Origin: Dryococelus australis
Lineage: Eukaryota; Arthropoda; Insecta; Phasmatodea; Phasmatidae
DNA length: 64,000 bases
Reading direction: 5' to 3'
Assembly: GCA_029891345.1 (NCBI GenBank)
Contig: CM056995.1
Span: 218,764,275-218,828,274 of the forward strand
The notes under the pieces were generated by a model. It did not search any database. It had not been told where the DNA came from and saw only the letters and a program-made list of their open reading frames with translations. Shown piece after piece: positions 18,907 to 64,000 of the stretch (the first letter of the stretch is position 1; each line of letters begins with the position of its first letter). Both the position numbers and the translations under genes were made by a program.

Positions 18907-20402
18907 CTTGCAATACGCGAGAGAAAATTTGCGGAAAAAATTGCTTGGTTACACGATATGGATCAATTGTTGCCGAATTTGAATTCGCTAAATGGAACTT
19001 GGCCGGATACACGAAACGCCACTAGACTGTAAAGTAAACAATTGGGATGGATTCTTTATAGTACACTCTGAATGTTTGTATGGTTTTCCCATTATAATAT
19101 GCAATGCAGAACAATTATCTTAGTGGTTCTGCTAAGATGGTCTTATGTAACACTGAGGAAGACTCTTAACTGTCTGGATCACGTGGTTCATTCTCCTACT
19201 GCTCCTTCCATTAACGTCACATGCTTGATTTATTTCATCACCATATTTGGAGAGTGACTTCCTTCCCTCTCTCCTTTTCTTTTTTACGCTCACCCAACCA
19301 GCATGCTTGGTATATTTCATTACCATAATTGGAGTGTGACTTCCATCCCTCTTTCCTTTTTTTTAAAATTAAACCTAATCTTTCACCCAATCGGCATGCT
19401 TGACGCTTGTCCCCTCTTCCCAATTACCCTTCTCCAATTTTCCCCCTCCATCGTCGTCACATGTGATATCAAATCACCACCACATTCACCTCTGTTCAGA
19501 GTTCCAGCATTTTAACTCGCTCACTTTATTTCTTCTCATTGCGGTGAGAACAACATTATTACTTTCTGCACCCTTATGTGCGAAGAATTTATTATATTTG
19601 TCATCGATCTAGATGGCAGAAGAAAAAGGATGATGTATTCTGTACAGATCACGATACGGCAACTACATGTAAGTATCCATGCATTATTTCATCAGTAGGT
19701 ACATGTAAGTATTTATACATAATTTTTTTAAAAAACTCATTACTCGTGATTGCGTATGTTTGTGTCAAACAATGTGTAGTAAAATTATATTTCTAGTGCA
19801 GGGGTTATACGGATCTTCGCTAGTTACAGACAATAAATTTAAAACTTCAATTTTTCCAAACAAATTGTTTCCTTTCAGAAAATATCGCATAAAGATTTTC
19901 AGCGACTATTAAATAACGATTCATTATGATCCGGCGAAGTGCTATGTATATTATAGCTACATTTCTTATTTATATAGAAAGGTTCCGAAAGTTAAAATTA
20001 AAGGAATTGTGTACAATTGGCATAAAGAGTCATTGCAGTCTGCATATTTGGTAAAACTTTCTATGGAACAGTACCTGTCGAAATACTCATTTCCTTTGGT
20101 ATGTACTCATTACAAATTCATATTATGCTACAATCACCAATCTCGAAATGAATTGCGTGGCAAAAAATTTCCTGCCACTAGATGCGAGATGGCCTGCCAT
20201 TTGAGAGAAAAATAATTCAGTCAGGTCACTTCGTGTTTCCAATTTAATTTTTTCGACTATGGCGACAGGACGGTTTCCATACGAGATTCGTGTTTGAATA
20301 TCTCTCTAAAAATACTCTACAAATAAACGACCACTCTCCACTTGGCCACACTTTTTTACTAAGCAGTGAGTGTATAAAAAAAATATTACAAATTTTGTTA
20401 CA
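18907..20402. other. Gene-free DNA left of the viral block
   Basis: No supported gene. The sequence is AT-rich, with related segments CATGCTTG(A/G)TxTATTTCAT(C/T)ACCATA repeated near 19220 and 19303. This is the stretch in which host DNA should meet the viral insertion, but no target-site duplication or terminal repeat is visible. Confidence 0.5.
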
Positions 20403-20436
20403 TTATATATATATATATATATATATATATATATAA
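20403..20436. repeat. (AT)n microsatellite at the viral boundary
   Basis: A pure AT run of about 34 bp lies directly before the first viral-type gene. It may contain or hide a TATA box for that gene. Confidence 0.9.
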
Positions 20437-20469
20437 AGATCAAATAAGTAATTGGACACAATAACACAA

Positions 20470-20764
20470 ATGGCTCCTAGTATCGACATTGCCTTGCATG
20501 ATTTTTATAAATTTTACACTTTGAAGGAACCAGTCGATTCAAACACAGCAAGTAAAAAATACGATAAATTGAGCGATGAGTACATTAAATTGTTGGATAT
20601 TCGAGAATATAAACTTTCAAACATCAATAACATTTTCACATACAACGTAACAATGTTTATAAAAATTGTCAAAATCAACTTGATATTATAATCAACTACG
20701 AAGCTCTGTTGAAACTCAACCTGAAACTCAAAATTGATTCCATTTTATCCATAGTTGAAGATTA
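20470..20764 (+). pseudogene. Hypothetical viral protein, frameshifted
   Basis: The first gene of the viral block starts at ATG 20470 (MAPSIDIALHDFYK...) and runs about 73 codons. It then shifts frame near 20680 and continues in another frame to TAA at 20764 (..LKIDSILSIVED). It is Lys/Asn/Ile-rich, helical, and has no domain I recognise. About 30 bases separate it from the next gene on the same strand, typical of compact viral genomes. Confidence 0.45.
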
Positions 20765-20794
20765 AACAATTCCACGAAAAGTAGTTTTTACGAC

Positions 20795-21764
20795 ATGTTT
20801 AAAATTCTTCCAAAATGGATGGGCGAACATTCTGCGATAATCAACCAACAAAACCAAAATTTTGCAAGTTACCTGATGGATAAATCTCCGAAAATTATCG
20901 AAGACTTTACTCAAGATGTATTCAGGCTCGTGGAAAAACCTAATCAAGTAAACATGGTTTTCCTGGTAAAATTAATTTTCCGATTCTACGTGACCGAATT
21001 CGATCAGGTAAGCTCGCTATTGCATATAATGTTTGTACCAGTGATGGGTTTCTGCCTAGCATTCGCGCTTGCTGAACATACCAACATAGAGGTGCTATAG
21101 TAAAACTATTTACCCACAATGCCCGAGCACAAAATACGCTGGGATCGGATGATGTTTTGTACAATTTGTTGTTCAAGTTTTTGAAAAAGTCTTCAAAACC
21201 CGACACCCTCTTTGAGCATTACATTTCACCTCTGCTCGGACACGACAACAGTGAAGCATCCATGCTAAACCTACACAAATTCTTTTACCGACGCTGCAAT
21301 GGCGTTTACCGGAAACTATTTGGACCTCGGGCCAAAGAGTCAATTACAGCAGACCAAGTACACGGTTTGTGCACAAATCTATTTGATAAAAACAGAAATT
21401 ATTTACTGCTGCTGATCGAAGCCATCAACGAAAAACTACCATTTGACGATTTCAATCAACGAATGTTCCCATTCATTTTCTGTGGGAAAAAGACCGGTCC
21501 CAGAAGCTGGTGATCGTCTATGGTTATTTCCTCCCCTTTGGTGTTCGAACTATGAGTGCAAAAACAATTAAAACATCAGAGTGCATATATCTTATGAGAT
21601 CGGTGATTGAACATATTCTCAAAGTTAATTTACCTAGTTATTCGTTTACGCAAGACTTTTTTACGGTAATTCGTGAGCATGACTTTATTGTGGATGTAAT
21701 TGTAGAACAATTAAAGGGAAATGAGCAGTTTATGGAAACAATTTCGAAAGAATTTAAAGTCTAA
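20795..21764 (+). pseudogene. Hypothetical viral protein (~320 codons), broken
   Basis: Reading starts at ATG 20795 (MFKILPKWMGEH...) and goes open for ~100 codons. It then changes frame near 21090 and continues from about 21100 to 21510 (..VLYNLLFKFLKKSSKP.., ..RMFPFIFCGKK). It changes frame again near 21505 and ends at TAA 21764. The three pieces abut and share amino-acid style, so I take them as one gene with two frameshifts. It is predominantly alpha-helical. No family is recognised. Confidence 0.5.
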
Positions 21765-21965
21765 CAGTAAGTTGCTTGGTACCATAACAGTATATAATAA
21801 GTTTTAATTTTTTTTAACGAGTGACAGACCTTTGTATAGTCGCCAAAACTAAACAAACTGATTGAGAATTGGATAAATGAGAAAAAAAACATAACAATGT
21901 GGCAATTTATTTTGGTAAAAAATACACACTTTTTTATTTAAATTGGTGATATTATATAATTTTCG

Positions 21966-62408: not shown

Positions 62409-62409
62409 C

Positions 62410-62679
62410 AATCACACTTGTAGATAGTGTACTTAAAAAAACACAAATAGGTCTATATATTATTTAAAAAAAACTTATTTGCATATAAATTACAAAAAAA
62501 ATACACACACATAAATAAATTACAAAAGTTTTTTTTTTTTCACATCTGTTGTTCTATATCTTTTAGATTTATACACAATGCAGTGAGCTCAAACTTAAAA
62601 TACTGCACATTACTGCTGTGTAGATGACGAAAAATAGCAAATACTGTTGGGATTTCATCCTGGCATTTACATAGCTTTT
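62410..62679. other. AT-rich intergenic gap
   Basis: Only AT-rich sequence between two convergent genes. Confidence 0.4.
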
Positions 62680-63363
62680 CTAAACTGGCAGGATCCATGA
62701 TTCAAAAATTACAATTTTGTTCTGGGGTAGCAGGAAGGGAGATCTTTGTTTTAGTTCAATCATCTGGTCGACACGTTCCATGTTTTCTTCTTCCACAGTG
62801 GAAAAAGTGTATTGTATCACCTTATCTGAGATCAAGTACCACGAATTGAAACTTCCCCTACTACTATATTCGCGAACAATCTTTTTCAGTAAATTGCCAT
62901 CTATCATGAAAAATACATATTTCCTTAACAGTTCGTTTCCAACAAACGGAATTTGAGAGCTTATATTTATCTCGTCGTCATTGTTCAAATTGAAGAGGTT
63001 ATTATTTGAACCAAGTAGGTTAAATATCTGAAGGTATTTTGCCAACAGTTGGATAAAGTTGGTAATTTCATCATTTTTGGAGCGATAGTTACGCGCGTTC
63101 ACCTTTATTTGATTGTTGCAATAAAACTTGAAGTAGTTGCCATCAATTTCACCCAACATTGAAACAAACTTTACTTCGGAATTATCTATGACAATGCATG
63201 GTAGACATGTTTTGTTCTCGACCCGTTGATATTTCACAGCTGGTTTCCCCTCTGGTTGCTGGTTGATTGGTGCTTGACTAAATGATTCACTGTCTTGAGC
63301 TTCTTCGTCATCGTCACAACATTCGTAATTTTTTCACTTGACTGAGTTGCGATCTTCCGCCAT
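62680..63363 (-). pseudogene. Hypothetical viral protein, single stop
   Basis: ATG 63363 (MAEDRNSVK) opens one frame of 227 codons to TAA 62680, broken once by TGA at 63334-63336. The N-terminus is acidic (CCDDDEEAQDSESFSQAP); the rest is globular and mixed alpha/beta (VKFVSMLGEIDGNYFKFYCN). Upstream, the frame stays open and Gln/Pro-rich (TTEQQQQQPEPQPCQL), so the true start may be further up; a TATAAAAG box lies at 63519-63512. No family is recognised. Confidence 0.55.
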
Positions 63364-63511
63364 GAGATTAGTGAAAGTATTAGCGCTATTGTCGAGTTGA
63401 CATGGCTGTGGTTCGGGCTGCTGCTGTTGTTGTTCAGTAGTTTTACTAGGGGGTATCCATCTTGCCGAGTTTCTTCTGAGCGACTGGTAAAGTAACAACA
63501 ATTAACTTCCT

Positions 63512-63519
63512 CTTTTATA
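63512..63519 (-). promoter_or_regulatory. TATAAAAG box, minus strand
   Basis: TATAAAAG reads leftwards from 63519 with CCAGT 34 bp and TCAGA 42 bp downstream, ahead of the gene ending at 62680. Confidence 0.45.
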
Positions 63520-63639
63520 GCTGCAATTTCTAAAAAAAAAAGATTTTTTTAACTTAATTAATTAATTAAATTATTTCAATAATTTTCTATTTTTATTTTT
63601 TATGCATTCATTTTAATATTTTTTGTTCTCTTTTTTACT

Positions 63640-64000
63640 TTTGTTTCAATATTTTTTCTAAAGCCAACGGACTATAGTTATTAGTCGCAAGTAAAATTGA
63701 ACATTCACATGAATTTTTTGCAGAGTCCTTAATTGTGTCGAAAGAGCAAGGTATTTTAAATTACTTGTACAAAGAATTATCAGTATTTGGGTTTATATAC
63801 GTGTGTGCTATACTGAATGCAAATTGGGCTCCTTGTATGGTCGGGTCACTTCCAGCCCATTTCGAAACACATTTCGTACATGGAAGTTTGGGGTCGGAAT
63901 TCAAGTATAAAATTTGCGGGCCACATTCACAATTACCGGTGGAGTAATCGGGCATCACGTTTTCTGGTGCATTGAATATCATCGTAACATATTTATTTGG
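63640..64000 (-). pseudogene. Cys-rich PIF-like protein, C-terminal part, cut by the window edge
   Basis: One minus frame enters from the right edge and is open past Met 63982 (MIFNAPENVMPDYS). It shows NCECGPQILYLNSDPKLPCT, KCVSKWAG, a stop after DNSLYK (63761-63763), then FKIPCSFDTIKDSAKNSCEC and ends near 63640. The spacing C-x-C ... C-x2-C ... C ... C-x-C with no other domain resembles per os infectivity factors or other disulfide-rich envelope proteins. The N-terminal part lies outside. The assignment to a specific PIF is not possible. Confidence 0.4.

Follow-up and report, generated by a model that had tools for sequence, protein, structure and literature searches.

A decayed, multi-copy virus of probable lefaviral type in the chromosomes of the stick insect Dryococelus australis

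Introduction

Which virus left a gene-dense block in a chromosome of the Lord Howe Island stick insect, Dryococelus australis, and how did that block come to exist in many copies? We analysed a 64,000-nucleotide stretch of this genome, called the window throughout (C3:218,764,275-218,828,274, where C3 is contig CM056995.1). An earlier sequence-only reading had taken it to hold a fossil genome of the virus class Naldaviricetes, integrated once and bounded by host DNA at 20.4 kb. Our analysis makes it very probable that the block is a decayed copy of a pif-bearing naldaviricete of lefaviral type, which reached the host chromosomes in a short burst and then decayed neutrally.

Multi-copy endogenous naldaviruses are already known. 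PMC12548425 describes large, high-copy lefaviral fossils in ant genomes, and table 2 of PMC10271883 gives the pif genes as defining Naldaviricetes and the lef genes together with ac81 as separating Lefavirales from Nimaviridae. Among the papers listed by our search of the open-access literature, no title or abstract start named a large DNA virus of Phasmatodea.

Results and discussion

Broken genes on both strands

Window positions 20436-64000 hold 19 stop-to-stop pieces of at least 150 amino acids, against a mean of 0.4 and a maximum of 2 in 30 dinucleotide shuffles; positions 1-20400 hold two, against a shuffle mean of 0.2. Long open stretches are far commoner here than chance would give, and broken genes occupy both strands. 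We scanned 149 of the 161 window pieces of at least 74 amino acids against Pfam, dropping 12 of low complexity, and examined the best 25 of the 33 families found at E up to 0.05; the remaining eight are expected to have E >0.034, provided the list is ordered by E as it appears to be. The right-hand continuation of the block was taken in separate 10-kb loci (separately read loci carry L numbers), and among 126 pieces of this right flank 14 families matched with E no higher than 0.01. Features are collected in Table 1.

Gene content of a lefaviral naldaviricete

Three genes score above the curated Pfam cut-offs: P74/PIF-0 and Ac81, which follow just beyond the window on its right, and PIF-1, which does so in paralogs of the block (PF05092, E 2.7e-12 at L040:1318-2010). 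With them the reading of host DNA that carries a fossil naldaviricete genome holds. A second P74 piece right of the window has E 9.4e-4. Part of the local PIF-1 copy, L015:1666-2226, itself matched no Pfam family.

The virus had also been credited with its own RNA polymerase, and specific but sub-cut-off matches to LEF-9 and LEF-8 support late RNA-polymerase genes. LEF-9 is represented by a window piece. For LEF-8, model positions 51-124 match the syntenic copy L043 (8.7e-6, 24.7 bits, cut-off 27) at a place that maps onto L015:6111-6311, and model positions 193-237 match L015:6446-6823 (E 0.035); the two weak, collinear, sub-cut-off matches support the presence of the gene. A genome-wide LEF-8 profile search gave one match, below cut-off (E 0.024). 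The LEF-9 piece also matches vaccinia rpo147 (E 0.003) and shares its NADxDGD region with this and other beta-prime subunits, but the LEF-9 model scores better and no other poxvirus hallmark was seen in the block. Nimaviruses lack lef genes and ac81 (PMC10271883, table 2), whereas the stick-insect block has Ac81 and supported LEF-8 and LEF-9.

The family-B DNA polymerase expected of a naldaviricete is recognisable in the window by the motifs DIE, SSYPNI, KITVNSTY and NADTDG, whose assignment to this polymerase we assume, and by a sub-cut-off PF00136 match. This assignment is supported because PF00136 scores above cut-off about 7 kb from two other copies of the block's left end, at C1:192,523,186 and C2:84,639,120. 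The IAP and the metalloprotease reported earlier were likewise recovered. A kinase was recovered only as a weak deoxynucleoside kinase match, and the PIF-like proteins only as a weak PIF-2 match inside the window; P74 and PIF-1 lie outside it. BRO is not among the best 25 of the 33 window families but is present just to the right. We dropped BRO within the window, the SF3 helicase and the P33-like oxidase, all missing from those best 25. PIF-3 had no match among the families examined in either scan (149 and 126 pieces).

A family dispersed over the genome

We searched the whole assembly (3,415,067,245 bases in 646 contigs; C1, C2, C6 and C9, like C3, are contig labels). PIF-1 scores above cut-off at all 79 places listed, on 13 contigs (best E 5.1e-15), and in none of 14 control genomes; 62 of the 79 matches contain at least one stop. 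The left stretch of the block recurs at no fewer than 39 other places (40 of 571 candidates scored), and both C1 and C9 carry copies of window 44-54 kb (2 of 2,085 candidates scored). An inverted 23-kb paralog sits 85 kb beyond the window's right end and is 86.2% identical over 17,088 aligned bases (Kimura two-parameter distance, K2P, 0.154). What had been read as one integration is a multi-copy family.

That the block is an assembly artefact or a contaminating virus contig is hardly conceivable: we found no point in its support, the diverged, broken copies lie on many contigs, and they are surrounded by what we take to be host transposons. The dozens of mutually diverged chromosomal copies make an artefactual join very unlikely. 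The assembly was, moreover, built from long reads (PMC10268593).

A burst of copies and their decay

For the history of the family we compared six PIF-1 copies, the best-scoring five and the local one, over 2,199 common columns. Five of them differ by pairwise K2P of 0.109-0.131. The alignment has 509 singleton columns versus 100 two-state columns in which two or three copies agree; no grouping exceeds 14 columns, and the one of that size includes the most distant copy, L039. When gap runs are compared for identity, 42 occur in one copy alone and 14 are shared, and singletons are spread evenly over the codon positions (65/279, 50/282, 68/283; p 0.14). Because the copies form a star, most lesions are private and the changes are even across codon positions, the pattern fits one burst followed by independent neutral decay. 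With a substitution rate near 3e-9 per site per year, a K2P of 0.12 would place the burst very roughly 20 million years ago, with a two- to threefold uncertainty.

A large pif-bearing DNA virus would thus have entered the stick-insect germline and, within a short time, come to occupy dozens of sites on the chromosomes, either through many infections that integrated or through integrated copies that moved as a giant mobile element. The sampled copies would have been intact or nearly intact when formed and would then have decayed unselected, gathering stops, indels and host transposons.

Several observations weigh against this account. LEF-9 and LEF-8 stay below their Pfam cut-offs. The families examined in the general scans of 149 and 126 pieces do not include P33, LEF-4 or LEF-5; no genome-wide search was aimed at them, and broken pieces or an incomplete block can hide P33. 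The sixth PIF-1 copy (L039, C6:84293692-84297354) lies further away, at K2P 0.178-0.185, and may stem from a sister strain or have been inserted earlier. Between the two C3 copies, third codon positions differ slightly more often than the others (218/1739, 203/1731, 254/1735; p 0.031), so some divergence may predate integration. Finally, the PIF-1 sample comprises only six copies.

The same data bear on the route. That a single virus lineage, then in circulation, integrated into the germline again and again within a short period is quite possible, if somewhat short of an even chance. It agrees with copies intact enough to bear mostly private lesions, with the slight third-position excess and with related sequences in other public data (see below), but the transposon junction common to two copies, described next, would then need to belong to the circulating virus genome. 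Segmental duplication by the host, starting from a small number of decayed insertions or a single one, is improbable. The nearby inverted paralog could be a local duplication, but the sampled PIF-1 copies have few lesions in common and no dominant grouping, and matches lie on 13 contigs. Because most lesions are private, we reject duplication as the chief route of the family, and consider it possible for the C3 pair.

A transposon junction at the left edge

The block continues to the left of the earlier boundary at 20.4 kb. Of the 39 other copies, nine align from the first base of the query, left of a (TA)16 tract, and the flanks of two of these nine (L044 and L045) match window 19,361-20,427 and 19,292-20,429, respectively, at 83-85%; both flanks hold about 0.37 kb missing from the window. 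L046, left of L044, matches window 18,362-19,352 unbroken, crossing from a transposon into the block. These flanks rule out 20.4 kb as the host-virus junction. We also rejected the (TA)16 tract as an insertion target of the kind seen in sesarmid nimaviruses, since homology continues to its left.

The transposon, which we take to be Merlin-like, has ends matching L017:2294-5341 at 76-83%, and the L017 copy carries a 27-bp inverted repeat at both ends. The position where Merlin and block meet, about 19117, is common to the window and the only other copy followed to this point; Merlin was therefore beside or within the element before these two copies formed, and may have been its passenger or the agent that moved it.

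This junction bears on a further route, in which a single capture would have been multiplied in the germline by a transposase or recombinase as a giant transposable element, as proposed for crustacean endogenous nimaviruses (PMC10871703). We hold this route as a tentative possibility. The star-like burst, the common Merlin junction, a second Merlin copy right of the local block (L017:2294-5341) and the nimavirus precedent speak for it. Such an element should have common termini and an encoded integrase or transposase; the sequence read gave one Merlin junction shared by two copies and no termini, target-site duplication or integrase of the element. The (TA)16 tract is not an edge, and Merlin also occurs alone, in L017 and partially in L023, so it may be a passenger. 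The bolder proposal of a lefaviral giant mobile element of about 80 kb or more that stems from an undescribed virus family, perhaps composite between Merlins and inserted mostly in one burst at 79 or more sites, seems to us unlikely.

Rightward, the block extends for no less than 31 kb beyond the window (to P74) and probably for 38 kb (long open pieces). The firm local span, from window 19,118 to P74, is C3:218,783,392-218,859,785, about 76 kb; the long open pieces extend it to about 218,866,320, or about 83 kb. From L017 onward, pieces that are presumably transposon-derived replace viral ones.

Few relatives and a likely divergent lineage

Placement in Naldaviricetes, and probably in Lefavirales, is read from gene content. 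Our search of a protein collection covered proteins of 0.55-1.75x query length. It returned one relative each for Ac81 (P0002, 189 amino acids; 70% over 82%) and for a PIF-5-sized protein in the block without a Pfam match (P0001, 351 amino acids; 55% over 93%). P0001 and P0002 have a source marked lgn, lie on short contigs and read open from end to end, so viruses or fossils of this kinship occur elsewhere. No Pfam family matches P0001 above cut-off, and its AlphaFold model has pLDDT 43; its size and hydrophobic C-terminal stretch make it a PIF-5-like candidate. Neither protein found anything among viral contigs. The P74, PIF-5-like and PIF-1 pieces found nothing useful in the PDB, and a 290-amino-acid polymerase piece has no relative among viral contigs, the PDB or the length-limited protein collection. 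With one relative each for two pieces and none for the polymerase piece in these searches, the lineage is probably divergent, as suggested earlier. Two contigs were discarded as relatives: L001, by its open reading frames a phage-like contig with a 2072-amino-acid RNA-polymerase fusion, and L002, whose match values are identical to those of L001.

Comparison with known systems

One of the closest parallels by description is the lefaviral virus of ants, a different host order. PMC12548425 lists pif0, pif1, lef8, lef9, ac81, an AAA+ ATPase, BRO, IAP, odv-e66 and imperfect-palindrome repeats, and reports about 100 kb in one C. floridanus block and 1,378 loci in H. saltator. The H. saltator copies form three clusters there, whereas our six form a star. 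Crustacean endogenous nimaviruses are also large and of the pif class, with 22 to 477 copies per haploid genome, and are read in PMC10871703 as giant transposable elements; unlike such elements, the stick-insect block has yielded no integrase or termini.

The block extends fossil lefaviral viruses to stick insects. Because a single chromosome-scale assembly contains dozens of sister copies, infection versus transposition as the means of germline multiplication becomes testable. The copies also preserve genes of a lineage for which the collections we searched contain hardly any relatives; the two relatives in public data suggest kin elsewhere. If the family did spread as a giant mobile element, it would be for insects and lefaviral viruses what the transposon-like nimaviruses are for crustaceans.

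Repeats and other features

The palindrome and motif of the homologous-region (hr)-like repeats recur in the window (53.6-54.4 kb) and in L011, L015, L025, L033, L034 and L036-L042, all viral loci. The motif is missing from all 23 loci taken as non-viral and from six viral loci (L012, L016, L019, L020, L035 and L043); one match with four mismatches lies at window 1487. According to PMC12548425, hrs in the dsDNA viruses of invertebrates take the form of imperfect palindromes; the repeat is possibly a virus-borne foldback transposon. About 3.9 kb of the inverted paralog (L025:3423-7357), bearing hr-like motifs, is missing between window 36042 and 36086, and the window copy may have lost these motifs.

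Table 1. Features of the block and its surroundings (window positions unless a locus is given; E values and bit scores from Pfam)
Feature	Position	Strand	Evidence
Decayed naldaviricete block within the window	20436..64000	.	Open pieces against shuffles; Pfam matches
Family-B DNA polymerase, at least 6 broken pieces	28602..30862	+	PF00136 E 0.0044 on 30341-30580, below cut-off; motifs
LEF-9-like RNA-polymerase piece with NADIDGD	56965..57402	+	PF05094 E 2.8e-5, 23.3 bits, cut-off 27
Ac81	L011:7092-7565, right of window		PF05820 5.1e-11, 42.9 bits, cut-off 25
P74/PIF-0	L016:600-938, right of window		PF04583 7e-9, 36 bits, cut-off 23
PIF-1, local copy (inferred)	L015:1147-3768		84-88% DNA identity (main pieces) to PIF-1-model loci
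Stretch recurring elsewhere	20380..23379	.	At least 39 other places, 10 contigs, 80-88% identical in main pieces
Stretch with inverted paralog	26030..44465	.	C3:218913481-218936690
Left continuation of repeated element, with (TA)16 tract at 20404-20435	19118..20435	.	83-85% to flanks of L044, L045; also L046
Merlin-like DNA transposon adjoining block, transposase pieces 18269-18948	16557..19117	-	DDE_Tnp_IS1595 E 4.2e-4, below cut-off
IAP, BIR piece and RING piece	57929..58953	+	PF00653 1.4e-17, PF13920 4.2e-8
Matrixin metalloprotease piece	46302..46541	-	PF00413 E 4.6e-11
Possible deoxynucleoside kinase (dNK) piece	59168..59431	-	PF01712 E 0.031, below cut-off
Possible TLDc-like piece	62683..63333	-	PF07534 E 6.4e-4, below cut-off
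Possible PIF-2 piece, continuing beyond window	63764..64000	-	PF04631 E 0.06, below cut-off
Piece with MADF domain (a viral gene, or inserted host or transposon DNA)	32185..32436	-	PF10545 E 3.4e-8
Three large open pieces (159, 335, 174 amino acids), function unassigned	37095..38997	-	No Pfam match, E up to 1
Two adjacent pieces, apparent paralogs of one unnamed protein	43086..44140	+	By eye; 43679-44140 without Pfam match
hr-like repeats, with 450-bp imperfect palindrome at 53908-54357	53643..54357	.
Two Bro-N pieces	Just right of window		2.5e-11, 2.4e-6
AAA ATPase	Right of window		6.1e-14
Weak lyase/ODV-E66 match	Right of window		E 0.022 and 0.19
DUF3627	Right of window		2.3e-9

Within window 20436-64000, one piece matches gag_pre-integrs (PF13976, E 9.7e-5) and is probably a retroelement inserted into the block, and a perfect (TA)50 tract lies at window 33888-33988. 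Between the block and the inverted paralog is a stretch of 32% GC (L023:6318-9948, C3:218884592-218888222), whose pieces we take to resemble a Polinton/Maverick-type integrase, a cysteine protease and another protein. Further right, 3,015 bases of L029 (C3:218998275-219008274) are N.

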